Notes under the pieces: model-generated
Database searches by the model: none
What the model was told of the DNA's origin: nothing
Seen by the model: only the letters and a program-made list of their open reading frames with translations
Source of the DNA: a virus
IMG/VR virus record: IMGVR_UViG_3300042313_000061
Location: 1-28,516 of that record
Reading direction: 5' to 3' (one strand)
Length of the DNA: 28,516 nt
Shown here: one piece after another, positions 2,967-27,926 of the stretch
Numbering within the stretch: position 1 is the stretch's first letter
How the letters are laid out: every line of letters begins with the position of its first letter
Translations under genes and position numbers: made by a program

Positions 2967-3239
2967 TTAAAACGGAATGTCATCTCCGTCATCATCTTTG
3001 GCCCGTGCTGGAGCGGATTTGGCCTTTGCAGGGGTTTTGGTTGCGCCTTGATCCTTTGGCTTGACTGACAAGCTAAAGAACTTCTTTCCGTCCTTCTTGG
3101 ACTCCTTGATCCACCCGTTGAGCCAGTAATCGGTTCCCTCAATGTTGATGGATCCGTTGTAGTCTGGGTGAGTGTCCAGTTCTTTGCGGTCGTTCTTGAA
3201 GAGTGATCCGCGATTCGTGTTATCGTATTGGTCTGCCAT
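2967..3239 (-). CDS. SSB-like protein with acidic C-terminal tail
   Basis: The 90-residue product has a compact N-terminal part (NRGSLFKNDRKELDTHPDYN, then a strand pair DYWLNGWIKES and KFFSLSVKP at about residues 37-63) resembling small phage proteins of the DUF736-like type. This is followed by a Lys/Ala-rich linker and the tail DDDGDDIPF. That acidic tail ending in Ile-Pro-Phe is the hallmark of bacterial single-stranded DNA-binding proteins, where it docks partner enzymes. The body is shorter than a full SSB OB fold of about 110 residues, so it may be a reduced or unrelated ssDNA-handling protein. It sits downstream of DnaB in the replication cassette. Confidence 0.6.
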   Translation of the reverse strand: MADQYDNTNRGSLFKNDRKELDTHPDYNGSINIEGTDYWLNGWIKESKKDGKKFFSLSVKPKDQGATKTPAKAKSAPARAKDDDGDDIPF

Positions 3240-3279
3240 ATTATTGTTATAGTTAGTTTATATTATCGCATCGTTTTTG

Positions 3280-3314
3280 TGGTGGATGCCACCAAGTCTG
3301 CATTAGGTTGCAGA
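3280..3314. repeat. Two adjacent small inverted repeats
   Basis: The 91-base gap 3240-3330 carries two perfect 6-base hairpins side by side: TGGTGG/CCACCA (3280-3285 and 3289-3294, 3-base loop) and TCTGCA/TGCAGA (3297-3302 and 3309-3314, 6-base loop). On the transcribed strand neither is followed by a T-run, so they are poor intrinsic terminators. They could be RNA-stability or regulatory elements between the 75-residue gene and the SSB-like gene. Confidence 0.5.
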
Positions 3315-3330
3315 AAGTGTTATGTTATGG

Positions 3331-3558
3331 TTAGTCGCTCCAGCAATCGTAGCTACCCTCGTAGACATATCCATCTTCGTCCTTCGTTTCATTGAAGGTG
3401 AACGATTGACCAAACATATCGTGAGATCCACAAAGGGACTCGATGATTTCTTTGGATAGATAGGACTTGGAAGTGATGCGGAATGTTCCCCAGTCCCGTG
3501 TGCCGCTGGCATTGCGAGACTTGTCTGCCTCGACTGTGATTACGTTGAGAGTTTTCAT
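3331..3558 (-). CDS. Hypothetical protein, 75 residues
   Basis: I chose the ATG at 3558 (MKTLNVITVEADK) because it follows the stop of the preceding small gene by one base; a longer reading to 3723 would lie wholly over that gene. The protein is a mixed alpha/beta sequence with TFRITSKSYLS (about residues 24-34), SFTFNETKDEDGYVYEGSYDCW at the C-terminus and two cysteines. Not recognised. Shadow frames on both strands in this area are not supported. Confidence 0.6.
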   Translation of the reverse strand: MKTLNVITVEADKSRNASGTRDWGTFRITSKSYLSKEIIESLCGSHDMFGQSFTFNETKDEDGYVYEGSYDCWSD

Positions 3559-3559
3559 T

Positions 3560-3754
3560 TCAATAGTAGTTGAACGTGTTGCCTCCGTAAACCTGATTGG
3601 GATTCCTGCGGCTCCACTCATCGTGGAAATGCTGTGCGTCAGAGTCGCTGCGCTCGGCCCTGTCAGCGAAGTGTTGCTCTGGGTCTTGGTGTTTGCGGTT
3701 AACCCGTGGAGATTCGTCATCATCCTGCGGGTCGAAGTCTGGTAGTGTTTTCAT
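3560..3754 (-). CDS. Hypothetical protein, 64 residues, very hydrophilic
   Basis: Starting at the ATG at 3754, the product is strongly polar with many Asp, Arg, His and Gln residues (for example DFDPQDDDESPRVNRKHQD), followed by HFHDEWSRRNPNQVYGG. No hydrophobic core is evident, so it may be partly disordered. A TTG at 3763 would add three residues. It lies between two other short genes with gaps of 1 and 5 bases. Function unknown. Confidence 0.5.
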   Translation of the reverse strand: MKTLPDFDPQDDDESPRVNRKHQDPEQHFADRAERSDSDAQHFHDEWSRRNPNQVYGGNTFNYY

Positions 3755-3759
3755 GTGGA

Positions 3760-4243: not shown

Positions 4244-5528
4244 CTATTTGTTCAAATCTAGAAATATCTCCGCGCATTTTTACAGGCACGAATACGTCAC
4301 GTTGACCACGCCGATTCTTGTCTAGACGTACACGCGAAGTTGATTGGGTTTCTATTTTCTTCCTGAAGGATGACGCTTCTTTTTTCTTCTCATCTGGGTG
4401 AGAGATGATGACCAAAAAATCAGTGTGGTGACCGATTGCGCGGGACTCGCGTACTGCACCTTCGTCGTTGAGTTGTGATGCAGTCATAACCACGGATTTT
4501 GTTTTAAGAGCAGTTAACTTCAACCTGCGTGATAGTTCACTCACTGCCTGTTCTCGGTTGTCTGCGGTTGGCATGGTCACGATTTGTAAGTAGTCCACAA
4601 TGATAAGATCGGCCTTGCCAAGTGATGCGAGTCTCGATGCCTCTGCTACGATTTCTCCAACCTCGGAAAGATCATCTCGGATCGTGAGGTTCATTCCCAT
4701 GAGTTGGGTGATTGCGCTTGAGATATCCTTTGCTGATGCAACCCCTCTCCATTCTGTTACCCCTTCCATCTCACGCAATGGCAGTATTGTCTTACCCAGA
4801 AGATTGGAAGCTATACGTTGTAGAATAGCCTTAGCTGGCATCTCTAGAGAAAATATAGTTACTGATTTACCATTCAGCAGTGCCTGAAGTGCAGCTTGGT
4901 ACAGCAGGATTGATTTACCTCCAGAAGTCTGCGCTCCTACCACTAGCATCTCACCCCTCCTTGCACCTCCACCTAGTAGCTTGTCTAGCTTGGGTATTCC
5001 CGTTGGAAAATTCTCAAGCGGGGTCTTGTCCTCCAGATCATCCATAAAGTCGTTTAGATGGGCCTTCACGTCCTTGCATTGGCTCTCTGGTACGATTGCA
5101 TTGGCGAAGGACTCAGCAAGGCTAGAAAGGTCTGCTTTCATAGCGCAAACGTCATCATGGTTATCCTCCCACGTCCTAATGGCATCACGATACCCTTTTG
5201 CCTTGATCAATTGTGCGCGGTAGTCTGCTGCGGTTTCCACGCACATAGCACCGGGCGATAGAAAGATTGTCTGGAGTACATCCATAACTCCATCCTTCCC
5301 TCCGCAAGCATTCAGCTTGCCCGTTGTCTCAAGGTCACTCAATGCACCTAGTGCGTTGGTGCTTCCAGTCCGCTGGTAGACTCGCTCCAGTGCGGTGAAG
5401 ATGAGTTTATGTTGTGATAACGCAAACAGGTCTTCTGACCATGCGAGGTGCGGAAGAACCTCTGGGTCGATTGCGATTAGTGACAGTGCCGCTTTTTCGG
5501 CGGTGATTGCGATTGGTGTGTTTTTCAT
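4233..5528 (-). CDS. dnaB: DnaB-type replicative DNA helicase
   Basis: This RecA-fold helicase unwinds DNA at the phage replication fork as a hexamer. The 431-residue protein has an N-terminal helical domain (about 1-110; start AITAEKAALSLIAIDPEVL), a linker, and the ATPase domain. Walker A is AQTSGGKS (199-206), Walker B LIIVDYLQ (308-315), the SQLN element lies at 351-354, and KNRRGQR near 404-410 supplies the arginine-finger region. Length is slightly below cellular DnaB (about 450-470). The start overlaps the methyltransferase stop as ATGA. The replication protein encoded upstream at 6553-7227 is a plausible loader. The domain order and motifs are clear. Confidence 0.93.
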   Translation of the reverse strand: MKNTPIAITAEKAALSLIAIDPEVLPHLAWSEDLFALSQHKLIFTALERVYQRTGSTNALGALSDLETTGKLNACGGKDGVMDVLQTIFLSPGAMCVETAADYRAQLIKAKGYRDAIRTWEDNHDDVCAMKADLSSLAESFANAIVPESQCKDVKAHLNDFMDDLEDKTPLENFPTGIPKLDKLLGGGARRGEMLVVGAQTSGGKSILLYQAALQALLNGKSVTIFSLEMPAKAILQRIASNLLGKTILPLREMEGVTEWRGVASAKDISSAITQLMGMNLTIRDDLSEVGEIVAEASRLASLGKADLIIVDYLQIVTMPTADNREQAVSELSRRLKLTALKTKSVVMTASQLNDEGAVRESRAIGHHTDFLVIISHPDEKKKEASSFRKKIETQSTSRVRLDKNRRGQRDVFVPVKMRGDISRFEQIDEH

Positions 5529-6517
5529 TTGGTTATTAATTCTTCTAAAAGAGTTCTGAATGCTCGTTCTGCTGTTGCTGGGACAACTCCGTTTCCAAGC
5601 AGTCGTAGCTCGTCTGTACGGTTGTCACAGGTGACGCACAACTCGGCATAGTCCATCCTATCGGAAGTCCCATCAAAGTCTCCACCCAGCGAGGGTTCAG
5701 TTTGCCCGTTGCCCAAGACTTCTTCTCCTCTAGGTTCACCTTCTCCTCCAGATAAAGCGGCACACTCGTCTGTCCATTCCCCTGCCGGAACTTGAGGCAC
5801 TTCTCCATTGTTTCCTCGTCCCTCACTCGGTTGAGTGCTGTTGGAGTTGGCCACGACTCTTGGCGGTTCCCATCCATGCTGGGCTTCGCCGGGGCGGGAA
5901 GGCCATGCGCTACGCTGACAGCCTGACCCAGAGTCTGCTCCGACAAGTTGGGTCTGCTCGGAGGGTGTGTACCATTTATAGAGTCTTTCCAGTCCATCGC
6001 ATTTGAGGTGGGCCATGATAAACACTCGCTTTCTCTGGTGAGGTGCGCCGACTTCACGCGCAGAGAATATTCCAAACGACACTTTGTAACACATTTGTTC
6101 CAGTTCTCCAATGACTTCTCGGAGTCCAAGGGAGATATGTCCTTCGACGTTTTCAAAGAAGCAGAGCTTGGGTCGAAGAAGCCGAATTCCGCTTGCGATG
6201 TAAGGCCAAAGATGTCTTGGGTCTTCTGTGCCAAGTCTCTTTCCTGCTGCGCTGAACGGCTGGCAGGGGTAACCTCCAGTAAGGATGTCCACTCGGTCAC
6301 GAAATGATTCCCAAGGGAAGGTTTTAAGATCCGTCCAAATAGGTGCTGGCTCCATAAGTCCCGCTTCCATTTTAGCAACCAAGTTCGCACAGGCGAAGGC
6401 TTCGATCTCACAAAGAGCGACTGAGCGCAGATTTGCGATGACTCGTTTGAGTCCAAGTTCAATGCCGCCGTATCCAGCGCACAAGCCAAGGTGTGTAGTT
6501 GTTTTGGTAGTATCCAC
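5525..6517 (-). CDS. C5 cytosine DNA methyltransferase
   Basis: The enzyme transfers a methyl group from SAM to carbon 5 of cytosine in a specific DNA sequence, probably protecting phage DNA from host restriction. Counting from the GTG at 6517 (330 residues), motif I is GLCAGYGG (11-18), motif IV GGYPCQPFS with catalytic Cys85, motif VI ENV (122-124), motif VIII QRKRVFI (161-167) and motif X LLGNGVVPATAERAF near the C-terminus. The 180-300 region is low-complexity, rich in Gly, Ser and Glu. An ATG at 6595 adds 26 residues but overlaps the upstream gene by 43 bases. The stop overlaps dnaB as ATGA. A long second frame lies inside it (see 5545-6519). Confidence 0.93.
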   Translation of the reverse strand: MDTTKTTTHLGLCAGYGGIELGLKRVIANLRSVALCEIEAFACANLVAKMEAGLMEPAPIWTDLKTFPWESFRDRVDILTGGYPCQPFSAAGKRLGTEDPRHLWPYIASGIRLLRPKLCFFENVEGHISLGLREVIGELEQMCYKVSFGIFSAREVGAPHQRKRVFIMAHLKCDGLERLYKWYTPSEQTQLVGADSGSGCQRSAWPSRPGEAQHGWEPPRVVANSNSTQPSEGRGNNGEVPQVPAGEWTDECAALSGGEGEPRGEEVLGNGQTEPSLGGDFDGTSDRMDYAELCVTCDNRTDELRLLGNGVVPATAERAFRTLLEELITK

Positions 6518-6519
6518 AT
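5545..6519 (-). CDS. Overlapping ORF inside the methyltransferase gene, 324 residues
   Basis: In the +1 frame relative to the methyltransferase, on the same strand, 324 codons stay open from the ATG at 6519. The product contains FFDPSSASLKTS (about residues 114-125), WPTSNAMDWKDS (about 169-180), WPTPTAL (about 222-228), VPLYLEEKV and LNPRWVETLMGLPIGWT (about 278-294). I remember such phrases as a recurring protein pattern in phage genomes next to or fused with C5 methyltransferases. Part of the pattern is simply the alternate reading of methyltransferase motif VIII, so it may be a conserved shadow rather than a translated protein. Its ATG is two bases from the methyltransferase GTG. Confidence 0.35.
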   Translation of the reverse strand: MWILPKQLHTLACALDTAALNLDSNESSQICAQSLFVRSKPSPVRTWLLKWKRDLWSQHLFGRILKPSLGNHFVTEWTSLLEVTPASRSAQQERDLAQKTQDIFGLTSQAEFGFFDPSSASLKTSKDISPLDSEKSLENWNKCVTKCRLEYSLRVKSAHLTRESECLSWPTSNAMDWKDSINGTHPPSRPNLSEQTLGQAVSVAHGLPAPAKPSMDGNRQESWPTPTALNRVRDEETMEKCLKFRQGNGQTSVPLYLEEKVNLEEKKSWATGKLNPRWVETLMGLPIGWTMPSCASPVTTVQTSYDCLETELSQQQQNEHSELF

Positions 6520-6552
6520 TATTTTGTTTTCTATTTTTGTTTGTATTGATTG

Positions 6553-7227
6553 TTAGCAAGCCCGTTGGTAAGTCTCTTGTGCCTTGTAGACCCATTCAGC
6601 TTTGAATCCCTGCCATCCACGGGAGACGCATTCGGTTATCGCATCCTCCAGCGTCCAACCTGCGTTGTCCGCTTCGTTCTGAATGGCATTGAGTGCTGTT
6701 TGAGTCAGTGGTGATTTCTTTGCCTTCCTGATTTTAAGAAAATCATTCCAGACCTGCTCTGGAACTGAATCTGGTCTTATCAATTCTACTCTTATCTTCT
6801 CTTCTCTTATCTTATCGGTTCGCGTTGGGCTGCCCATAGGTTCGCTATGGGTTTCGATTGGGTTAGCCATGGGTAACCCATGGGTTTCACTTGGGTTAGC
6901 TTTGGGTTTCCTTCCACCCTTCTTTCCATTCTCCCAATTAGCTATCAGAGAGGAGTTATACTCATCCCACTGGTGAATTATAACATTATCACCTTCTCTG
7001 CGTATGAAACCAGCAGTCACAAATGCTGATTCAAACTTTTCAGCGTCACCATTGTATCGGCACAATGCTTTCAACCCCGCTGTTGGAAGGTTTGTGAACA
7101 CGCTTGTTTTCCTGTTTTGGCAATGGCCCCATATCCTGATGAGATACACGGGTGCGGATTCGTCGTTGAGTAAATCAACTAACATTCTTGTTTTCCAGTG
7201 ATCTGGAAAGTCTGGAGATACTATCAT
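6553..7227 (-). CDS. Phage replication initiator / helicase-loader-like protein
   Basis: The 224-residue product has an N-terminal winged-helix-like domain (MIVSPDFPDHWKTRMLVDLL through AGFIRREGDNVIIHQWDEYN, residues 1-90), a variable hydrophilic linker with KKGGRKPKA and two ANPxETH repeats (about 101-150), and a C-terminal domain with VWNDFLKIRKAKKSPLTQTA and CVSRGWQGFKAEWV. This N-domain, linker and C-domain layout is common in phage replication proteins that bind origin DNA and load DnaB. The dnaB gene is two genes downstream. The leader is A/T-rich and lies after a strong inverted repeat (7243-7296). Confidence 0.65.
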   Translation of the reverse strand: MIVSPDFPDHWKTRMLVDLLNDESAPVYLIRIWGHCQNRKTSVFTNLPTAGLKALCRYNGDAEKFESAFVTAGFIRREGDNVIIHQWDEYNSSLIANWENGKKGGRKPKANPSETHGLPMANPIETHSEPMGSPTRTDKIREEKIRVELIRPDSVPEQVWNDFLKIRKAKKSPLTQTALNAIQNEADNAGWTLEDAITECVSRGWQGFKAEWVYKAQETYQRAC

Positions 7228-13193: not shown

Positions 13194-13394
13194 TTATTCT
13201 TCTCTGTCTAGTTCTGTGTCGAATTCAGCCAACTCATACATTTCATCCATGTCTCCATTGGCATAGTCTTCTGTTAGCTGGATAATTTTTTCTTCTGATA
13301 CTTTTTTAGGGTTGTAAAACACATATTCATCTTGGACAGGAATCATCTCCCATCCCTTTGGCCCCTCTTCTTTGTCAGTTACAAGTATATTCAT
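13194..13394 (-). CDS. Small acidic hypothetical protein, 66 residues
   Basis: The start overlaps the stop of the giant protein gene as ATGA, so it is probably translated by coupling. The product is strongly acidic (many Glu and Asp, ending DTELDREE) with one strand-like segment (WEMIPVQDEYVFYNP, about residues 15-29). It might be a chaperone-like or regulatory partner of the giant protein by position only. Not recognised. Confidence 0.55.
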   Translation of the reverse strand: MNILVTDKEEGPKGWEMIPVQDEYVFYNPKKVSEEKIIQLTEDYANGDMDEMYELAEFDTELDREE

Positions 13395-16300
13395 TTTTTA
13401 AGTATTAATGGTATTTTTGACTTTTTCATCGTCCCAACAATGGTTTCTTTGCTTCCTGTTCTTACTGTTTCCTTGGGATGACTGCTTGCATAGTCAGGGA
13501 ACAACGTAACTGGATCTCTTGGTGTTTCAAGAATAAAATTATTTGCATCCTCTGGGCCAAGCATCATCCAATCATAAGATGGATGTATTCTGAACTTAGG
13601 GTTTTTTATGAACTGGTCACGAAGATATCTTTCAGTGTCGCTCATCTTAGCTTCTTGCTTTGGATCATTTCCAGTGTAGATAGCGAAAGCATCCATGTCT
13701 TTCGACAATTGAACCGCTGCTACGATATCTAAGTTTTTACCTTTATTGAAATCCATTGATTCTAATAGACGTTGAGCAACTGAAGGAATAAATGGTATTC
13801 CATCAATCCTATCCATTGCGCTTCCACGTTGGTTAAATGTGAATTTAGACGCTTCCTCTGAGAATGTTTTGTCCTTATATTTATTAACGATTTTCTTATA
13901 CCAATCTTGATCTTTATATTTACTAATATGAGCATCAAATGCCTTATCGAAACCTTCAATATTACCTTTAGTAGCTTGTGACTTCATTGATCCCAATGCA
14001 CCTAAGAAATCAACGCTAGGCTTATATTTCTCGATGTTTTTAGCTTCAAATCTTTCAATCAAATTAAACTCTGATTGGGTTATTTCGTTGTCTTTTAATA
14101 AGCTTTGAGCTTTCTTATATCGCTTTAAATGCTTTGCTGGATTTTTTGCTCCTAACTCAAGTATGACGTGCAATGCATCTAGTCGTTCCTGTGGAATAGA
14201 TGCGGACGTGGAATCAATTTCAGACATTACATCTTGAACAAACTTGCGATTGCTCTTATGCGCTTTTTCTTTCATCAATTGAATGAGTGCCATTCCAGAT
14301 GTTGTATTCTTAATGATATTCTTTGCCCTTGTAACAAAAGCAGCAGTCATATTTGCCCAAACAGGTTTAAATCCTCTTCCATCTGGTAATTTAGCTATTG
14401 CCTGATTCGATTTGAGCCAAGGATGCAATGGCCCACCCATGTTAGACCCCCTTGTGTTGTGCCTATCAGCCTCTAGCATTGCAACTTGTTCTCCAGATAT
14501 TGAAGATATATCAGAAACTCTAGGAAGAACTGTTGTTTTAGGATCAACTTCGTATTCAATAACACGATTATCTTCAGTTGGTTTTGTTGCTATTTTAAAG
14601 TATCCTCTATCTGGAAATTTAGATGGTAATTTTTTACCAATAGAATGAGTGAAATCAGGTTCTATATCTCTTTCAGGTTCTTTTTTAGCGGTTTTAGGCT
14701 TTTTAGCACCCTCCGATGGCATGAACTGCAAGCCAGTTGCTCTAGGCAACTCGTCTTGCACTGGCTTATCGTTCTTATCGAGAATCTTTATAAGATTCTC
14801 ATCGAAGACAACGTAGTTGTAGGTTCCGTCTCCTTGTTTTCGGGATGTTCCGTCCAGATAGCGGATTCCGGGGATGCCAAAGTCAAAAAGACGCATTGAA
14901 GCCGCTTCCGTATCGCCAAATGCTCCTTCTGCAAAAGCCCCGTAAATTCGCTCGCCTTTTGTTTTATTGGTTAATTCTTCACCATTTGGCAATCTGCCAT
15001 TAAGTCCCGCAAGAGATTTTTGCACCTTCTCACTCTGCTCACTCAATGGCTTATCCCAATCAAGCAAGTCTTCGTCTTTTACATCGAGATCTACTTTGTA
15101 GAGGTTGCCTTTAATTTCTTTTATATCATTTTCATTTAATGTTTTAACAAATTTAATAGCTTTATCAACGCTTTCTGGAGATTCCAAATCTAATTCTTTT
15201 TTCCATCGCGCAAGACTTTCTTTTGCTTGTTTTAAATTTCCAGATGTAAACGAAATGGAATCCCATACATGGTATGATGCTTCCGATCCAATCAAATCTT
15301 TTAATTGGTCAAGCGTCATTCCTTTTATTGTATATCTGTCACGAGGTGTAAGTTTGTCTCGATAAGAAGTTGCTGTTCCTTTTTTTTGTGCAAAGTAAAG
15401 CCCCCATCCATACGCTTGCGCTCCTTCGCCAGTGCCAATGTTTGCCAGCTTGAACTTGTCTACTTCATGCGGAGTTCCATGATAAGCAGGAAGGAAGTTG
15501 ATCAACCCAGCGGAGGATACCAATGCATTTGAGAATGGTTTGATAACTGCGTCTGGAGCAGGTTTTGCACTGGTGTTTATGTCAGAAGATTGTATGCTTT
15601 TTTCTGAGCTATCAGGGGTCAAAATCGGTTCAAAATGTGATAAAACATCATCAAATCCATTTAATGTTTTAAATCCATAAGGAGTTTGCGAGTGACTTGA
15701 AAACCTAAAATCTTTTGTTCCCGTTTTAATATATACACTTCCAGTTCTCAATGAGTTATCTATCTGAAATGGGATATTATTATTGTCTAAATATCTTATA
15801 GTTTTAGAAGCATCTCCAAATTGCTGTATAAGATCATTATTGAATCTTATTTTGTCTTTGAGTAATTCTTTTTCTCTTGCTTTCTTTTCTTCATCAAGTT
15901 GTTTTTTTAGTATATTTATACGATTTTTTGTTTGTTCTACGTTTGAATCAAGCAAATCAGCAAATTCTAACTGTCCTTCTCTATTTCCAATTGATTTAAC
16001 GCCAATATACCCTTCTTTATCTTCTGTTTTTGGAGCAAACTCTTTTAATTTTGATAATTTATCATTCGATTCAGTGCTTCCCAACTCCATATCTGGCAGC
16101 ATAGCCTTGCCCCTCACAGGAGGCTCAATTTCGCCCAGCGAGAGTCCCTTCGCTCCAACCACCTTGGTTGGTGCGGATATGCCCTCTAGGGGGCGTATAC
16201 GCGCAGAGATCGGCTCGTATTTGGTGGGTTGCTCTGCTGGCATGAACTGCAACTGACCACCTCTCACTTTACCTGCCATTTCGGGAGTGATGTCTACGCG

Positions 16301-19300
16301 CCAGATTGGGGTATCCTTCATGGAAGGGATAGTGTAACCACCCTTGTCAATGTCTGGCCCTTTTTGCATAATGCCAGAGTCAACCTTCTCAACCTTGCCA
16401 CCCATCTTTGCAATATACTTGCCAACCTCTTTAGGCATGATTTGGTCGTAGAATCCCTTCATGCCTTCACCACCGACTGTTAAGTCATCTCCAGTGGCAG
16501 TTCCAGAGTTTTCAGCAAGGATTTTCGATGCCACTTCTTTTCCTATCACCTCGCTTAATTGCTTGCCATTGGCATCAGCAGTATCGGAATCATAGACAGA
16601 TCCATCATCGTTGATTTTACCTGCTAATACTGTGTTTCCATTTTTAATGGCAGCAAACGCTTTTTGGTAACCCTTGGGAGTGTTCCATGTGATCTCATCG
16701 ACTGCCTGACGCATTGCTTGCTCATAGCGTTTTACCTGCTCGATGCCAGTAGTCCAGCCAATCCATTTCTTGTCTGCATCCACGGCATCTCGCAATGCGC
16801 GTTTGAAAAGTTGTAGTGACCAGTCTTTGCGGAATGGCGCGTCAGGGATGCCAGCATTGCGAGAAGTGAAAAAGTCTTGCGCTTCTTTTGGAGTATCACC
16901 AAATCCAACTATTTTTTTATTTTGATCAACAACAAAAAATTTTGCAGTTCCACCAAGTGGATCGTTTAATTGTGGGTTTTCAATTACTTTGTATCCAGAA
17001 GGCAATTCGTTTTCATACCCCTTCTCCCTACCAGCCTGATGCCTGTCAGACTGAAACTCCTCAACAAACAACCCCTCGTTACCCTGCGCGTCTGTGCGCT
17101 CGTTGAGACGCATATGCGCTACATAGTTGGGTGTGTCTGGGAAGTGGGAGGAGGTGTATGAGGGGATAGTTGGATCTATTTCATTTTTGTATTGATCAAA
17201 TAAGCGGTTTTTTTGAGTTTCATTTAAATCATCAAATGACCCAAGATTCATTTCTTCAAACCATTGCTTGAATGGAGGTTTGTTTTGCTTAACTGGCATT
17301 GTCATCACCACCTCTCGGTAGTTTGCGCCACCGGGGAGTTGGTATGTAGAGTATTTGGGATCTAATTTTTCTGCATTACGATCATCTGATAAATTATCAC
17401 TTAATATTTCATATTCTTTTTTTAAGTTTTCTGGAAGTGATTTTGGATCAATATTAGGTGGCCCACTATATTTATCTCTCAACAAAACTTCTCCAGTTGA
17501 TGATTCATCTATATATATTCCTGATTCACGAAACTTTTGTTTCGATGCGTTAAACCTTTTAAGTCTCATTTCTTTTTGGAGCGATTCGTCACTTAGAGTC
17601 ACCTCTTCAAACTTAACAGCACCCTCGTTGCGAAGATACTCCATAACCTTGTCTTTCGGAACCTTGCCGCTGTTCGCCGCTGCGAGACGATCAATCTCTC
17701 CAAGCACTCCAGACCATTTCAGTTCCTCGGCTTTTGCGTTCTGTGGGTTGCTTACGATTGCTTTGAGTTGATCTGGTGACGCAAATTTACCCTGCACCTT
17801 TTCGTCGATGGTCTTTTGAAGTCCAGAGTACATCCCACGCTCGGAGGTTGGATAGCGTTCCGTTTCCGTAGCCTCAATCGGATCTTCTGGCATGAAGTTG
17901 AGTTTTGCTTTCTCGTAATCAATTGGAAGTTTAGGAAGATGGTCTGCATCTAACAATTCTGCCATGTGATCGATCCGCATGGACATAATTGTTCGATCAA
18001 GACTCTTGTTTTTAGGATCACCTTTTCTTTTTGGAATAATTGTCCTATCCAAATTCAATGCTTGGGTTTCATTGGTAAACAAATTCAAAAAGTCATTAAG
18101 AATAGACTTCTTAACTTCTGCTGCTTGAACATCTGCATCCAATTGATTTGTTCCTATAGGTTGCCCTTGCTTGTCATAACCACTTCCTTCAATTCCCTTT
18201 GTCCAGTTGTCTAAATACTTTTTAGAAAAATCAGCCCAAAATGCTTCCTTGCTACCACCCCAAGGATTCAACCTGTTTGGCATACGATCACTCCACAGGT
18301 TTAATTTCTCAATCATTCTACCAGCGGAAATTGTTGTCACCAAGAAGTTGCCATCCTTTGACAAGTGAAGTCCGATTGGCACTACATCATAGATTTTAGG
18401 AGAGAATGCCTTGTAGTTGCCTTTATCGTCCATTACTGCGGCATAATCGACATAGAAGCGTGTTCCATCTTTCTTAACAATAGCTTCGTTGAGATCCAAT
18501 AGGTATTTTTTGATCTTTAGAGGAACAATGCCTTCAGGCAAGTCTTGAATAGCCTTAATCTGCATTGGAGTAAATGATCCCCGATATGTTTGAGAGTCTT
18601 CAGAAACCGCTTCAAATCGACCCGGTGTGCCGTAATCTGGAGTATCAATTGCCTGTTTGAACAACGATGCCCTATCTTGTTGGAGTTTTTTAAGGTCTTT
18701 AGGGTTTAGTAACCTTGGAGTTACACCATCAACCTCCGTGGCAACTTGCTTGGCGATTGACAATGTTCCACCCTCTGGAACTTGCAACTGACGCAATTGA
18801 ACTGGAATTTGACCATAGCCACTTAACCTCTCTTCCCCATCCTTGCTAAATCTCCATGATCCCTCGTATACAGATAGATCATTCACGTCAACTGCCGCAC
18901 CTACTGGGTTTCCATCAGCATCGAATACCTGTGCAACAACCTTTGTTGCAAACAGACCAGAATCCATTCCGTAGCGTTCTGCTGCTATCTTGCTTTTCTT
19001 GATTTCTGCCCTTGAGATTGGTGCTGCTTGCGGCAACGATGCCATTGTAGAAAAGTCACCATTCATGCTTTGGATTAATCGCACTGCATTCCTAGCAGCA
19101 GATTGTGCCTCTGGTGGTAGTTTTGCATTGGTCAAATCTGAAACAACATCTGAGGATGCGCCAAGACCAAGAACCTTGGTCACGGCATTCTTCAACAGAT
19201 TGTTTTTCATCTTCAATCGAGCGACATCGAGCAAATGAAGTTGCTTAGAATCTAGGTTCTTTCCAAGGTTTCTCGATAGTGTATTAGAAAATAACTCAGC

Positions 19301-22300
19301 AAGAATCTCTTCTTGCATATACGATCCAACATCCTTGGCATTTAATGAGTTTGTGTTGTAGTCCCAAACCCCAAGGCTTTGAGCAATCTCTGCAACCTGA
19401 TCCTTTGGTCTGTTTTTAAGATAGTCCTTAACGAACATCTCATTGAGTTGCTTTTCAGAGTACAATCCATTTGAAATCTCCTTAACAGCACCAGATGCGT
19501 CTTTGATTTCGTTTGTAAAAAGAACCTTTCGAGCGTCACCCATTGCATTCTGAATCTCTGGAATACGAGCGAAGTGGTGACCTGTTTCGTGATTGAGTGC
19601 TTCTGTTGGAGTCTCTCCAAAGATCATCATGCGATTCTGTAGAGCATCAGAATTTACTACAATGGATGGTTTAGAGGTATCGAAAACTAGACCCTTTGCT
19701 GCATCAGAAACCTGCATTCCGGGTCGATACTCATTACCCCCCGTTCCAGAGTAGAAACCTTGCTGAGTTGCACTCATCATCAAATCCTCGTCAGAAACAT
19801 CCCTGTACTCAGGCTTCTTCCTAAAATGATCAAAGATTTGCTGTGTAGATAAAATGTGGAATCCAACATTGTTCTGTCCAGCCTTCAGACTTCCATTAAT
19901 CAGCATATTGTTTCTAGCCAATTGCTGTAGGAAGTTCTTCCCAAATTCATTCCTTGTCTGTACGTTTGCTGTTTTCAACAAAGACAATGACTTTTGTTCA
20001 GCGGACAAAACCTTTTCCGCTTTCTTGATTTTATCTGGACTTGCACCTTCCGCTTGAAGACCCTGTAAATCACTCTGCGCTTGACCAATCTTGTTCTCTT
20101 GACGTTGCAAGACATTAGTCCAGTCAGTTAATCTATCGATTTCACCCTGTGTTTCTGGACTAGAATCACGATACGCTTTCAATGCATCCATACTGGCCTG
20201 TCTAGACCTTCTCTCAGCAATGACTGGATCTTCTCCAAGGAACTTATGGAACCCTTGCTGCATTGCACGTCCACCAAGACTAAACACAAGACCTGATCCA
20301 ATCATGCCCTTTAACTCTTCCTCGTCTGAGGAGTCGATCATTCCCATTGAAAGTCCAAGAATCGTTGGTTCAATGCCCATTTTTGCATATTCACCAATGT
20401 TAGAAATCAAATCATCACTGGCAAACCTCAATATGTTTTTAGTTGTATCGCTTACCTTACCAATACCTTCGTAATCGACAACCTCTCCTCCACCTTCTTT
20501 GATTCCTTTAGCCTTATCCTTTGCATCATCGAGCAACTTTTTGGTGTCGATGTATTCCTCAGTACCTTCTGAAAGTGTTTTTAGTTTTGCAGTAAGATTC
20601 TTAACTTCATCCTGCTGTTTTGCTATGCTTTCAAGAGTTGCTAATGGCCCCATCTCACCACCAGCAGAAATGCGTCTTGCAGCACTAATTTCTTTTATAA
20701 CTTTGGGTGTTTCTTTTAATGTCTTGAATCCAGCTTTTACACCAGCAGCAGTAAGTCCACCTGCAACCATGCCTCGCAATGGGTTCTCTGGATCAATTTC
20801 ATAACCCAATCCAATTCCAGTTACATACGGAGTGTATTTTGCGATTGTCTGGAATTTTGGACTTCTTTCAAGGTATTCACCAGTTGCTTCAATTCCTTTT
20901 GCTGTTGCTCCAGCCGCACGTTCAACTAGACCTGCTGTTTTTTTAGATTCTAGTTCCTTGAGTTGTTTTTCTTTTAAAACCCTTTGAGCTTTAGATTCAA
21001 GAGCATTGATCTCATCGTCTGTGTAGCGTAATTTTTTGAGTTTAAGTCTAGCTATTGGAGTTAGCATTTTTGACGCATTAACAACATTTAAGGCATAACC
21101 AAATGTATCAAGGCCAAACCCACCGGGGATAGCCACGTCACCGAATGCTTGCAATTCTGGATCCGTTTCAGGGATTGATTTCTTAGTCTCTTCGATTGAA
21201 TCAAGAACATTGGCCTCAATGGTAGCCTTTCGTTTTGACTCAGCTTCCTCCTTAGTCAACTTAGGATCCATTATCATCATTTCCTTCACGGAAGGAGTTG
21301 ATAAACTAGCAAAATAAGAAAATGTTGGAGCATAGATAGGCTTATAAACGTCCATTGCCCTAGCCCATGCACGGGGTTCTTCATATGTCATTTTGGCTTT
21401 TACTGAATCGAGAAGTTCCCTTGTTTTCCACCTTTCATATGCTTGTTCTTTAGTAAGCAATCCAGCTTGCTCACTTATTGAGTCCCAAGTTTGAAATCCA
21501 CCAGTAGCTAATTTTGTTCCTAAGAATGCAAGACTAGGTGGTAAATCAGCAAGTGGTGCTAGTGTTTCAAATGGAACTTGTTTAGCTTCCATTCTCTTCT
21601 GCTCATACTTTTGATCGAGTGCCTGTATTTGCTCTTTAGTAAGACCCTCTTTTATCTTCTCAAGGTATTTAGCGTCTGTGTATGAATCTGGGTTAGGTTG
21701 CTCACCTCCCTTTAGTGGGGTGTTAGAAATTTCCCATGCGCGTTTTCTCCACGCTTGAGCTTCTTGCTGTTTTTCTGGAGATAGCAATTGTTCAGCTTCT
21801 AACCCTTTTGCGTAATCAGATGTTTGACCAAGCAAAAATGGAACACCTTGTTTTACTGCTTTTGCTCCACCAACTAAAACGTCACCAACAAGTTCACTTG
21901 CCATTACCCCAAGATCTTTACCAAGAAAAGTAGCTGATGCTTTTGTTAGATTATAAAAATCTTCTTTAGTTTCTGGAATCTTATATGGAGTTGTTTCTCT
22001 TTGATAATCAAATATTTTTTGATTTAGAATGTCATCAAAAATAACATCTGGACGCTGTTTTTTAATTTCACTTAAATCTTTTCCACTTAAAGTATTTAAG
22101 AAATCAACTTCATCCTTGCCCCATTTTTCATCTGGAACATCTTTTACCATTGCCAAAAATTGATTGCTAGGAAGCGAGTAATCAACTTCAGGTTCTTTAG
22201 GTGGTGTTGGTTCTGGAAGTCGTGATGGTGTTGGTTTTGGCAACTCTGCAACTGGTTGACTTGCAGGAGATGGTGTAGGGGAAGGTTGAGGAGTAGTAAC

Positions 22301-22561
22301 TGGTGCTGGAGTAACCGCAACTTCTGGTTGAGGTGTTACAGACGGAACTGGAGCGGGAACAGCGGATTCAACAGGGATTGGAGTAACAGATGGGACTGGC
22401 GTAGGAGTAACGGATGGAACTGGTGCTGCTTCTGGCTTTTCTCCTAAAGCAGCATCAATTTCATCTAGTATTGCTTGAGTTGGATTCTTTGGTTCTTGCG
22501 CTTTGTCTGTTTGCGCTAAAGCCTCATCAATTGTTTTTAGCAATTCATTGTAATCACTCAT
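13391..22561 (-). CDS. Giant polyvalent virion-type protein, 3056 residues
   Basis: Such proteins are thought to be packed in the phage head and injected to act on the host. Residues 1-45 hold two IDxAL helices; 45-125 are Pro/Thr/Ser-rich with PVPSVTP repeats. Residues 125-870 are helical with Gly-rich hydrophobic patches, like ejection proteins. A zincin motif HETGH lies at 991-995. About 1170-1560 is a domain I cannot name. A large polyvalent-protein module (1560-2107) has FVEEFQSDRHQ near 1839 and VGGEGMKGFYDQIMPK near 2029-2044. An insert (about 2110-2350) includes coiled coil. An ADP-ribosyltransferase-like (ART-PolyVal) domain starts at YHGTPHEVDKF (2360) with GWGLYFA and GIPGIRYLDGTSR. 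A C-terminal helical region ends the protein. Domain names come from memory. Confidence 0.85.
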   Translation of the reverse strand: MSDYNELLKTIDEALAQTDKAQEPKNPTQAILDEIDAALGEKPEAAPVPSVTPTPVPSVTPIPVESAVPAPVPSVTPQPEVAVTPAPVTTPQPSPTPSPASQPVAELPKPTPSRLPEPTPPKEPEVDYSLPSNQFLAMVKDVPDEKWGKDEVDFLNTLSGKDLSEIKKQRPDVIFDDILNQKIFDYQRETTPYKIPETKEDFYNLTKASATFLGKDLGVMASELVGDVLVGGAKAVKQGVPFLLGQTSDYAKGLEAEQLLSPEKQQEAQAWRKRAWEISNTPLKGGEQPNPDSYTDAKYLEKIKEGLTKEQIQALDQKYEQKRMEAKQVPFETLAPLADLPPSLAFLGTKLATGGFQTWDSISEQAGLLTKEQAYERWKTRELLDSVKAKMTYEEPRAWARAMDVYKPIYAPTFSYFASLSTPSVKEMMIMDPKLTKEEAESKRKATIEANVLDSIEETKKSIPETDPELQAFGDVAIPGGFGLDTFGYALNVVNASKMLTPIARLKLKKLRYTDDEINALESKAQRVLKEKQLKELESKKTAGLVERAAGATAKGIEATGEYLERSPKFQTIAKYTPYVTGIGLGYEIDPENPLRGMVAGGLTAAGVKAGFKTLKETPKVIKEISAARRISAGGEMGPLATLESIAKQQDEVKNLTAKLKTLSEGTEEYIDTKKLLDDAKDKAKGIKEGGGEVVDYEGIGKVSDTTKNILRFASDDLISNIGEYAKMGIEPTILGLSMGMIDSSDEEELKGMIGSGLVFSLGGRAMQQGFHKFLGEDPVIAERRSRQASMDALKAYRDSSPETQGEIDRLTDWTNVLQRQENKIGQAQSDLQGLQAEGASPDKIKKAEKVLSAEQKSLSLLKTANVQTRNEFGKNFLQQLARNNMLINGSLKAGQNNVGFHILSTQQIFDHFRKKPEYRDVSDEDLMMSATQQGFYSGTGGNEYRPGMQVSDAAKGLVFDTSKPSIVVNSDALQNRMMIFGETPTEALNHETGHHFARIPEIQNAMGDARKVLFTNEIKDASGAVKEISNGLYSEKQLNEMFVKDYLKNRPKDQVAEIAQSLGVWDYNTNSLNAKDVGSYMQEEILAELFSNTLSRNLGKNLDSKQLHLLDVARLKMKNNLLKNAVTKVLGLGASSDVVSDLTNAKLPPEAQSAARNAVRLIQSMNGDFSTMASLPQAAPISRAEIKKSKIAAERYGMDSGLFATKVVAQVFDADGNPVGAAVDVNDLSVYEGSWRFSKDGEERLSGYGQIPVQLRQLQVPEGGTLSIAKQVATEVDGVTPRLLNPKDLKKLQQDRASLFKQAIDTPDYGTPGRFEAVSEDSQTYRGSFTPMQIKAIQDLPEGIVPLKIKKYLLDLNEAIVKKDGTRFYVDYAAVMDDKGNYKAFSPKIYDVVPIGLHLSKDGNFLVTTISAGRMIEKLNLWSDRMPNRLNPWGGSKEAFWADFSKKYLDNWTKGIEGSGYDKQGQPIGTNQLDADVQAAEVKKSILNDFLNLFTNETQALNLDRTIIPKRKGDPKNKSLDRTIMSMRIDHMAELLDADHLPKLPIDYEKAKLNFMPEDPIEATETERYPTSERGMYSGLQKTIDEKVQGKFASPDQLKAIVSNPQNAKAEELKWSGVLGEIDRLAAANSGKVPKDKVMEYLRNEGAVKFEEVTLSDESLQKEMRLKRFNASKQKFRESGIYIDESSTGEVLLRDKYSGPPNIDPKSLPENLKKEYEILSDNLSDDRNAEKLDPKYSTYQLPGGANYREVVMTMPVKQNKPPFKQWFEEMNLGSFDDLNETQKNRLFDQYKNEIDPTIPSYTSSHFPDTPNYVAHMRLNERTDAQGNEGLFVEEFQSDRHQAGREKGYENELPSGYKVIENPQLNDPLGGTAKFFVVDQNKKIVGFGDTPKEAQDFFTSRNAGIPDAPFRKDWSLQLFKRALRDAVDADKKWIGWTTGIEQVKRYEQAMRQAVDEITWNTPKGYQKAFAAIKNGNTVLAGKINDDGSVYDSDTADANGKQLSEVIGKEVASKILAENSGTATGDDLTVGGEGMKGFYDQIMPKEVGKYIAKMGGKVEKVDSGIMQKGPDIDKGGYTIPSMKDTPIWRVDITPEMAGKVRGGQLQFMPAEQPTKYEPISARIRPLEGISAPTKVVGAKGLSLGEIEPPVRGKAMLPDMELGSTESNDKLSKLKEFAPKTEDKEGYIGVKSIGNREGQLEFADLLDSNVEQTKNRINILKKQLDEEKKAREKELLKDKIRFNNDLIQQFGDASKTIRYLDNNNIPFQIDNSLRTGSVYIKTGTKDFRFSSHSQTPYGFKTLNGFDDVLSHFEPILTPDSSEKSIQSSDINTSAKPAPDAVIKPFSNALVSSAGLINFLPAYHGTPHEVDKFKLANIGTGEGAQAYGWGLYFAQKKGTATSYRDKLTPRDRYTIKGMTLDQLKDLIGSEASYHVWDSISFTSGNLKQAKESLARWKKELDLESPESVDKAIKFVKTLNENDIKEIKGNLYKVDLDVKDEDLLDWDKPLSEQSEKVQKSLAGLNGRLPNGEELTNKTKGERIYGAFAEGAFGDTEAASMRLFDFGIPGIRYLDGTSRKQGDGTYNYVVFDENLIKILDKNDKPVQDELPRATGLQFMPSEGAKKPKTAKKEPERDIEPDFTHSIGKKLPSKFPDRGYFKIATKPTEDNRVIEYEVDPKTTVLPRVSDISSISGEQVAMLEADRHNTRGSNMGGPLHPWLKSNQAIAKLPDGRGFKPVWANMTAAFVTRAKNIIKNTTSGMALIQLMKEKAHKSNRKFVQDVMSEIDSTSASIPQERLDALHVILELGAKNPAKHLKRYKKAQSLLKDNEITQSEFNLIERFEAKNIEKYKPSVDFLGALGSMKSQATKGNIEGFDKAFDAHISKYKDQDWYKKIVNKYKDKTFSEEASKFTFNQRGSAMDRIDGIPFIPSVAQRLLESMDFNKGKNLDIVAAVQLSKDMDAFAIYTGNDPKQEAKMSDTERYLRDQFIKNPKFRIHPSYDWMMLGPEDANNFILETPRDPVTLFPDYASSHPKETVRTGSKETIVGTMKKSKIPLILKK
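22334..22423. repeat. Short DNA repeats coding the Pro-rich region
   Basis: Within the N-terminal coding part of the giant gene a near-identical 17-base unit of the form GTWACRGAYGGRACTGG occurs at 22334-22350, 22383-22399 and 22407-22423. It encodes copies of PVPSVTP. The repeats suggest expansion by slippage or recombination and a length-variable flexible linker. Confidence 0.6.
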
Positions 22562-26268: not shown

Positions 26269-27111
26269 TTATTCTATTTTGTTGTTCCAATTTACTGGTT
26301 TAAATCCCAAATCTGGTATCACGATGTCCTCGTAAGGTGCAAGATGTGAAATGTTAGTTATCCTTGCTTTTAACTTTGGACAATCGACGTGTGGGCCTTG
26401 GTGACGATCAACGCAGTTCAAACAGACAGGATAGAAGTCAGCATTAAGTGACTTATCGGGATTGTTCATCCATCCATGTTTGCCTTTTACATATCGAGTT
26501 GGATCTGGTTTTACGTTGTTTGTCTCTAGGTACTCGTAAATATCATCGTCAGTCCAATCTTTAAGAAGGTAAAGTGAAGTTGGATTTCCATCGACGTGCC
26601 TGATATCTTGCGATAGCGGAACGTGACCTTTGATCAAATCCGTATCCGTAAATTTAGTTCCAATATATACTCCTGACCACGGAAAATTAAATGTTCCAGT
26701 TGGACGCATCAAAAAGTCATCCACACCACACATAAAGGGTTCGTTTGCTTTAGGACGCTCAGTTCCCAAAGACAAAACAATGGAATTTTGACCCCACTGG
26801 AAATAGTGAAGCAAATCAAAGCGAACATCTCCAGTATGGACATCAGGCCCATCTGCAAGAGTGTGCTTGAAGGCTGGATATTCGTACATTGTCAATTGCC
26901 AATCCTTGATCAATTTGTCAGAATATGCATATCTTTCACGGAATTTAGGTTGCCGAAATTGTACTACTGGCAAATCAATCCCACACTTGAATTTCAGAAA
27001 GTGCAGAAGGGTAGTTGAATCCTTTCCACCAGACCAAAAGATGACCGCATTGGGCCATTGCTTGTTCCAGCGAATAGCTTTATCTATTGTTTTATTTATT
27101 AGGTTTTTCAT
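26269..27111 (-). CDS. PAPS-reductase-family PP-loop protein
   Basis: This 280-residue protein belongs to the adenine-nucleotide alpha-hydrolase superfamily. From the ATG at 27111 (TAATG overlap with the upstream stop) it has the PP-loop SGGKDS at residues 27-32, an ENxxK-free core with VVQFRQPKFRERYAYSDKLI (about 48-67), LSLGTERPKANEPFM and a C-terminal cysteine set CLNC (230, 233) and DCPK (244). Cellular PAPS reductases make sulfite, and the relative DndC works in DNA phosphorothioation; many phages carry members of unknown role. No dndA, D or E gene is visible, so sulfur modification of DNA is not supported here. It sits between two Met-Gly-Gly genes. Confidence 0.8.
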   Translation of the reverse strand: MKNLINKTIDKAIRWNKQWPNAVIFWSGGKDSTTLLHFLKFKCGIDLPVVQFRQPKFRERYAYSDKLIKDWQLTMYEYPAFKHTLADGPDVHTGDVRFDLLHYFQWGQNSIVLSLGTERPKANEPFMCGVDDFLMRPTGTFNFPWSGVYIGTKFTDTDLIKGHVPLSQDIRHVDGNPTSLYLLKDWTDDDIYEYLETNNVKPDPTRYVKGKHGWMNNPDKSLNADFYPVCLNCVDRHQGPHVDCPKLKARITNISHLAPYEDIVIPDLGFKPVNWNNKIE

Positions 27112-27926
27112 TAAACCATAACTCCTGCTCCAAGAGCAGCACCGCCAAGTTGCGCTCCTGCTCCAATCCATGCTTTTGTCATTTCATTTTTTTCTCTGGC
27201 TTGATTAGCTAGAAATTCATTCCGCATATTATTATAATTCTGCGTGTCAGCGATATTTGCTGTATGTGCATTTTGAATGTTACCAATAGAACGATTAATT
27301 GCATCCTGTGCAGTCTGACCTAGACCCTGCGCTCCAGATAGCACGCCACGTTGCCAGTCTTGAAGTCCTTGTCGATTTTGTGCCTTTGCTGCTTCTTGAC
27401 CCGAAATCAGTGCAGATGGGTCAATTCCACCCTGCATTTGATTAGCATCAAGATATTTTTGTCTCAACGCAAAATCCTCAAGCGCAATCTGTCTCCCTTT
27501 TTCAGTTGATTGATCGTACATTGCTGCTCGACCCATGCTAGAAGATGGATCGATTCCAGACTGCATCATTTGAGCCAAACCTTTAGTTTTAGCCCAATCG
27601 GTCATTTTTTGTTGCCAGCTTTCTGGAGATGTGAGTTTTTCAATTGTCTCACCAGCACTAGATCTCATCCTTGCGCTTGCAGGATCAACAGATTCTTCAA
27701 ACTTCCTTGCTCTATTAGCATTTTCAATACCCATTTCAAATGCTTGTTTAGATAATTGGGATCCATCAAATGTTTGCTCAATAGGCTTAACCTGAGTAGC
27801 CATTTCCAAGAATTTAGCTTGTGATTTTAATCCACCATACATCCCTGCATTTGCTTCAGAAGCTAAGAGCATATTAGCTTCAGGTGTAGGTTTCTGGATA
27901 TCTGGTGTGTATGTAGATCCGCCCAT
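27111..27926 (-). CDS. Met-Gly-Gly family protein, ejection-type, 271 residues
   Basis: The N-terminus is MGGSTYTPDIQKPTPEANML, then helical sequence rich in Ala, Gln and Met with LASEANAGMYGGLKSQAKFL (about residues 21-40), WQQKMTDWAKTKGLAQMMQ and many short helices. The C-terminus is a hydrophobic Gly/Ala run (WIGAGAQLGGAALGAGVMV) that may insert in membrane. This composition resembles podovirus DNA-ejection proteins, which cross the cell envelope at infection. Its stop overlaps the PAPS-reductase start. It is the longest of the four Met-Gly-Gly proteins. Confidence 0.65.
   Translation of the reverse strand: MGGSTYTPDIQKPTPEANMLLASEANAGMYGGLKSQAKFLEMATQVKPIEQTFDGSQLSKQAFEMGIENANRARKFEESVDPASARMRSSAGETIEKLTSPESWQQKMTDWAKTKGLAQMMQSGIDPSSSMGRAAMYDQSTEKGRQIALEDFALRQKYLDANQMQGGIDPSALISGQEAAKAQNRQGLQDWQRGVLSGAQGLGQTAQDAINRSIGNIQNAHTANIADTQNYNNMRNEFLANQAREKNEMTKAWIGAGAQLGGAALGAGVMV

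Follow-up and report, generated by a model that had tools for sequence, protein, structure and literature searches.

Organisation of the locus

The window, i.e. the whole 28,516-nucleotide stretch analysed here (IMG/VR virus record IMGVR_UViG_3300042313_000061), carries on its minus strand a C5 methyltransferase open reading frame (5525-6595) and, in +1 relative to it, a second, ATG-started frame of 324 codons (5545-6519). The catalytic chain encoded in frame 0, referred to as alpha, is likely initiated at a GTG at 6517, spanning 5525-6517 (minus strand) with 330 aa, while an in-frame ATG at 6595 would make it 356 aa long; the +1-frame protein, beta, counts 324 aa. The two start codons overlap within ATGTGG (6514-6519, minus strand), the ATG at 6519-6517 belonging to beta and the GTG at 6517-6515 to alpha. 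An earlier description based on the letters alone (hereafter, the sequence-only reading) had reported this second frame and had placed the methyltransferase wobble base at the second base of the other codon, both of which agree with the sequence. The phrases that it quoted, WPTPTAL, VPLYLEEKV, LNPRWVETLMGLPIGWT and YSLRVKSAHLTRESECLSW, are all present, and they do recur in proteins near phage methyltransferases.

Sequence and alignment place alpha motifs I to VIII (HLGLCAGYGG ... GGYPCQPFS ... FFENVEGH ... APHQRKRVFIMA) at 6011-6493 (minus strand), and the same DNA encodes the N-terminal half of beta. Alpha residues 182-307 (5597-5974, minus strand), predicted to be disordered, occupy the usual place of the recognition domain and motif IX, and motif X (LGNGVVPATAERAF; 5558-5599, minus strand) is recognisable in the alpha sequence. 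In beta, a match to that portion of phrog_1008 which a single-frame C5 methyltransferase also has marks residues 165-271 (SWPTSNAMDWKD ... SWPTPTA ...; 5707-6027, minus strand) as the presumed target-recognition region, and residues 274-290 (5650-5700, minus strand) carry motif IX, LNPRWVETLMGLPIGWT, as assigned by hhalign to the single-frame enzyme L157.

A DnaB-like helicase is encoded downstream of the methyltransferase and a replication-initiation protein upstream, which assigns the locus to a phage replication module. Short repeats of the ATGGGTT / TTGGGTT type, encoding NPSETHGLPMANPIETHSEPMG, lie at 6820-6910 of the window within the replication-initiation-like ORF (6553-7227). Elsewhere in the window, a single ORF of 3056 aa (13391-22561, minus strand) gave a weak, below-cutoff match to ART-PolyVal, the ADP-ribosyltransferase of polyvalent proteins (E 1.2e-6), and another ORF (26269-27171, minus strand), adjoined by an uncharacterised ORF of 271 aa, weakly matched phosphoadenosine phosphosulfate reductase (phrog_424, E 7e-7; PF01507, E 6e-4, below cutoff).

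Openness of the second frame among relatives

Viral relatives were collected with the methyltransferase alone (71 loci) and with the second frame (the best 80 of 248), and removal of near-duplicates yielded 124 distinct viral loci, including one annotated phage record. The second frame was matched in +1 relative to the methyltransferase in all 124. In these relatives the alpha and beta frames are open over similar lengths, encoding proteins of approximately 240 to 590 residues, and their stop codons mostly lie within about 100 nt of each other. Two viral loci (L062 and L152) each have one stop in beta, which is conserved in other respects; the stop may reflect mutation, sequencing error or recoding.

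Stop codons were compared with the numbers expected under a synonymous shuffle that preserves the frame-0 protein and its codon usage. For the window gene, the probability of a +1 frame free of stops was 0.0008. In 101 homologous genes, no +1 stop was found against 542 expected, while the +2 frame behaved normally (1755 seen, 1789 expected). As this set had been pre-filtered for an open second frame, the test was rerun without the filter on 57 viral loci obtained using the methyltransferase alone as query, and one +1 stop was counted where 270 were expected; for 73 loci of bacteria or archaea, the count was three and the expectation 243. By comparison, 70 ordinary C5 methyltransferases used as control held 1188 +1 stops against 1405 expected, with at least eight in every gene. 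The 324-codon frame is therefore confirmed as real, a chance origin being very unlikely, and the suggestion that it is coding, advanced from the single sequence, is almost certainly correct.

Paired start codons

In each of the 117 viral loci whose 5' end is complete, the second frame has an ATG no more than 13 nt away from the methyltransferase start. The two starts are exactly 2 nt apart, overlapping as ATGTG, in 79 of these loci, and 5 nt apart, as in ATGACATGG, in a further 26. A second branch, found in Acinetobacter, Pseudomonas, Chromobacterium, Lelliottia and E. coli prophages, has a different conserved start pair, ATGAATGAGC or GTGAATGAGC, usually preceded by GGAG or GGAGG, with a beta that begins MSWLFSQALV. 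Such conserved pairing is hard to account for unless beta is initiated there.

Partition of the methyltransferase motifs

In C5 methyltransferase structures, motifs I-VIII and X make up the large domain, and motif IX and the recognition region the small domain (PMC5944983; PMC3404938). Alpha matched phrog_363 (E 2.9e-53) and PF00145 (E 1.2e-31), the latter over residues 37-200 only, i.e. through motif VIII. The chain has motifs I-VIII, including the PCQ catalytic motif within GGYPCQPFS, and in the window frame 0 ends with motif X; motif IX is absent from it, as is a recognition domain in the same chain. The AlphaFold model of alpha was confident for most of residues 1-180 and 308-330, with pLDDT below 50 over most of 182-307, and its best Foldseek match was M.HhaI, aligned over about 175 columns of 327 residues.

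Beta matched phrog_1008 (E 5.4e-17), a family that also matches the C-terminal half of the single-frame methyltransferase of Gordonia phage CheeseTouch (L157; E 6e-43), which PF00145 spans end to end. In hhalign comparisons, beta LNPRWVETLMGLPIGWT fell on L157 LNAAFAEWMMGLPDG, and beta LNPRWVETLMGLP was set against CheeseTouch LNAAFAEWMMGLP, with E 0.001 for the window family alone and 8.7e-13 for a wider beta alignment. Compared with an ordinary motif IX (VTPRERLRLQGIPDDWF), beta matched in the right place, if weakly (E 0.14). No model for beta was found in Pfam or NCBIfam, and hmmsearch of the beta profile against PDB chains returned no significant match; with the weak similarity to ordinary motif IX, this means that the homology runs via the actinophage single-frame enzymes. 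Since AlphaFold modelled beta alone poorly (mean pLDDT 56), the recognition domain is assigned to it by homology and not by fold. On these alignments, the C-terminal half of beta appears to be the target-recognition region and motif IX of the same enzyme, and alpha and beta would correspond to the large and small domains of a C5 methyltransferase.

Natural variants of the arrangement

Other divisions of the same parts occur among actinobacteriophages. Mycobacteriophages Maminiaina, Gladiator and Firecracker (L160-L162) have two annotated methylase genes with a short overlap, the first encoding motifs I-VIII and the second, in the +1 frame, the recognition region with motifs IX and X, and in these splits alpha stops soon after motif VIII. 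In actinophages Magnar and CheeseTouch (L155 and L157), the catalytic and recognition parts are fused in a single frame. A tree of the catalytic region, unrooted and weak in its deep branches, strongly supports a position of this single-frame pair within the split genes of actinophages. In L086, L097, L102 and L111, motif X is encoded by the beta frame and not by alpha, and a motif search by pattern finds it in beta also in L283 and L289; movement of motif X between the chains is expected if both are parts of one enzyme. The 3' end of L086, L097, L102 and L111 also encodes a Cys-rich alpha tail (e.g. CDDVICWKCGGHYADCPC).

The actinophage fusions and the early alpha stops of the mycobacteriophages would also suit programmed +1 frameshifting after motif VIII, by which a fused catalytic-recognition protein would be made and the second frame upstream of the shift would remain unused; frame-0 VFIMA and second-frame SWPT indeed share DNA at the end of motif VIII. 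We consider this unlikely, given that beta has an ATG of its own beside the alpha start in each of the 117 loci, that its frame is open across the whole motif I-VIII region, and that one shift in the window family would drop motif X, which lies in frame 0.

The sequence-only reading had placed all methyltransferase motifs in one frame and had seen in the other a separate protein overprinted on a complete enzyme. It was right about a coding second frame and wrong about its independence, since motif IX sits in the second frame. An unrelated phage protein with its own function would agree with the length and coding character of this frame, and with an N-terminal half of beta that has no recognised homologue outside the two-frame arrangement. 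This reading is very unlikely, as the C-terminal half of beta shares homology with the recognition region and motif IX of C5 methyltransferases, motif X is found in beta in some relatives, and frame 0 lacks what beta supplies. A frame 0 devoid of motif IX and of a folded recognition domain, with a second frame that provides them, points instead to two parts of one enzyme.

Selection on the two frames

Overlapping-gene dN/dS ratios (dNN/dNS of approximately 0.6, and dSN/dSS) at first seemed decisive as proof of coding, and were rejected as such because control genes without a second ORF gave similar values (dNN/dNS 0.60, dSN/dSS 0.64). As the naive ratios are thus biased, reliance was placed on stop counts, codon-position pattern, fourfold-site divergence relative to control, and starts. 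The comparisons between family and control that follow are approximate, because the control genes come from other hosts and have another base composition. At an alpha identity of 70-80%, the region beyond motif VIII showed a fourfold-site divergence of 0.180 for the family vs 0.494 for the control, and a ratio of position 3 to position 1 divergence of 1.02 vs 1.95. In the recognition region, divergence peaks at the base that is the third codon position of beta, and selection on the alpha frame is almost relaxed (dNN/dSN 0.75). The dNN/dNS value around motifs IX to X was 0.24, far under the control. Across motifs I-VIII, at 75-80% identity, a fourfold divergence of 0.379 vs 0.545 indicated modest extra constraint, and wobble entropy by column barely set the family apart from the control, including in the motif I-VIII region. 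The constraint on methyltransferase wobble sites anticipated by the sequence-only reading is thus strong after motif VIII and weaker over motifs I-VIII.

Together with the stop counts, these comparisons show a second frame that stays open and under constraint in divergent homologues, as in an overlapping gene pair. An artefact, in which the frame is open simply through codon usage or strong conservation of the frame-0 protein, is scarcely credible: naive ratios below 1 do occur in controls lacking a second ORF, but under a shuffle that fixes both this protein and its codon usage, stops are still expected in the hundreds, the codon periodicity of the recognition region is that of the second frame, and the frequent stops sought among close homologues did not occur.

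Breadth in bacterial and archaeal genomes

One genome for each species of bacteria or archaea was scanned with a three-sequence alignment as query; 227 beta relatives were identified, of which 80 were kept. Beta lies in +1 in all 80 kept loci; the motif IX pattern was found in the alpha frame of none of them and in the beta frame of nearly all. Among their sources are Pseudomonadota, Bacillota, Spirochaetota, Verrucomicrobiota, Planctomycetota, Acidobacteriota, Bacteroidota and archaeal assemblies. Such a locus also occurs in four complete E. coli genomes, where it is annotated as a DNA cytosine methyltransferase without a separate beta. The two-frame layout hence appears to be widespread in phages and bacterial genomes, and usually annotated as one gene.

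Some loci showed further peculiarities. A prophage region of E. coli PT62 (L325) contains two C5 methyltransferase genes (42-1028 and 3000-3759), separated by roughly 2 kb in which a RuvC gene lies, and the second has an unannotated beta ORF of 251 aa in +1. In L113 (2501-4000, beta frame), the methyltransferase carries an insertion through which frame 0 stays open, the other frame encoding an HNH endonuclease (PF01844, E 2.5e-4); it resembles the hidden HNH of mycobacteriophage ShiLan (PMC11855218). The annotated internal CDS of Streptococcus phage P0095 (L163) was considered as a beta and rejected, as motif IX is in frame 0 and the second frame is full of stops.

A probable two-subunit enzyme encoded in overlapping frames

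By computation, both frames are coding, their dual starts are conserved, and the motifs are split between them. Translation of beta, heterodimer formation, methylation and a role for the N-terminal half of beta are inferred. Very probably, the locus encodes a two-subunit C5 methyltransferase, with a catalytic alpha and a recognition beta in two almost coextensive frames. Frame 0 would yield alpha, with the large catalytic domain (motifs I-VIII and X) and a disordered linker in place of the recognition domain; the +1 frame would yield beta, whose C-terminal half would be the small domain, comprising the target-recognition region and motif IX. Both chains would be initiated at the overlapping start codons (ATGTG in the window), and a single initiation region would be expected to give comparable amounts of the two. 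Joined in a single enzyme, the two chains would modify phage DNA, probably as protection against host restriction.

Two-polypeptide enzymes of this type have precedents in M.EcoHK31I and M.EaeI. The beta gene of M.EcoHK31I reportedly overlaps alpha in another frame, an observation attributed to Lee, Kam and Shaw in 1995.

In published motif content, M.EcoHK31I has motifs I-VIII and X in alpha and motif IX in beta (PMC3404938), and that its two proteins are required for methylation is stated in the title of Lee, Kam and Shaw (1995), as cited there. Alignments show the same division of motifs in the window locus. The recognition domain of M.EcoHK31I is, however, predicted in alpha (PMC3404938), whereas in the window it apparently lies in beta, and the equivalent alpha stretch is predicted to be disordered. 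The window locus further differs in its nearly coextensive frames, overlapping start codons, phage-borne nature and wide distribution. M.AquI is likewise a naturally split, two-chain C5 methyltransferase, but its split falls inside the variable region, and its beta carries both motif IX and motif X (PMC3404938); the gene pairs of the mycobacteriophages are closer to it than the window is. To the M.EcoHK31I precedent, the present locus and its relatives thus add breadth, near-identical starts, coextensive overlap, motif X moving between chains, and the assignment of recognition to beta.

PHROG families 363 and 1008, matched by window alpha and beta respectively, are both labelled DNA methyltransferase, labels that are silent on the two families sharing DNA in different frames. 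In Paenibacillus phage Shelly, g56 ('g55 internal gene') is a +1-frame ORF inside a methyltransferase and matches phrog_1008 (E 8e-74), yet it is annotated as hypothetical and starts further inside alpha, not at the alpha start. The HNH of ShiLan is also an out-of-frame protein inside a phage methylase gene (PMC11855218), but represents a mobile endonuclease insertion and not the enzyme's own second half. Literature searches, which covered few subscription papers, returned no report of this two-frame arrangement in phages.

With less assurance, we consider it reasonably likely that these loci represent a C5 methyltransferase class of phages and prophages that is both broad and old, distributed over several bacterial phyla, with catalytic and recognition subunits in near-coextensive frames and overlapping starts. 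Annotation would then drop one frame, many annotated enzymes would be catalytic halves, and the N-terminal half of beta would have been born by overprinting on the catalytic motifs.

If this holds, many phage and prophage cytosine methyltransferase genes annotated as one protein encode two, and the missing protein probably sets DNA specificity, with the expectation that cloning or recoding the annotated frame alone would give an inactive enzyme. It would also offer an exceptionally clear example of an enzyme whose two interacting parts share almost all of their coding DNA, in which the evolution of long same-strand overlaps would become testable in a simple assay, with the actinophage single-frame versions available for comparison.
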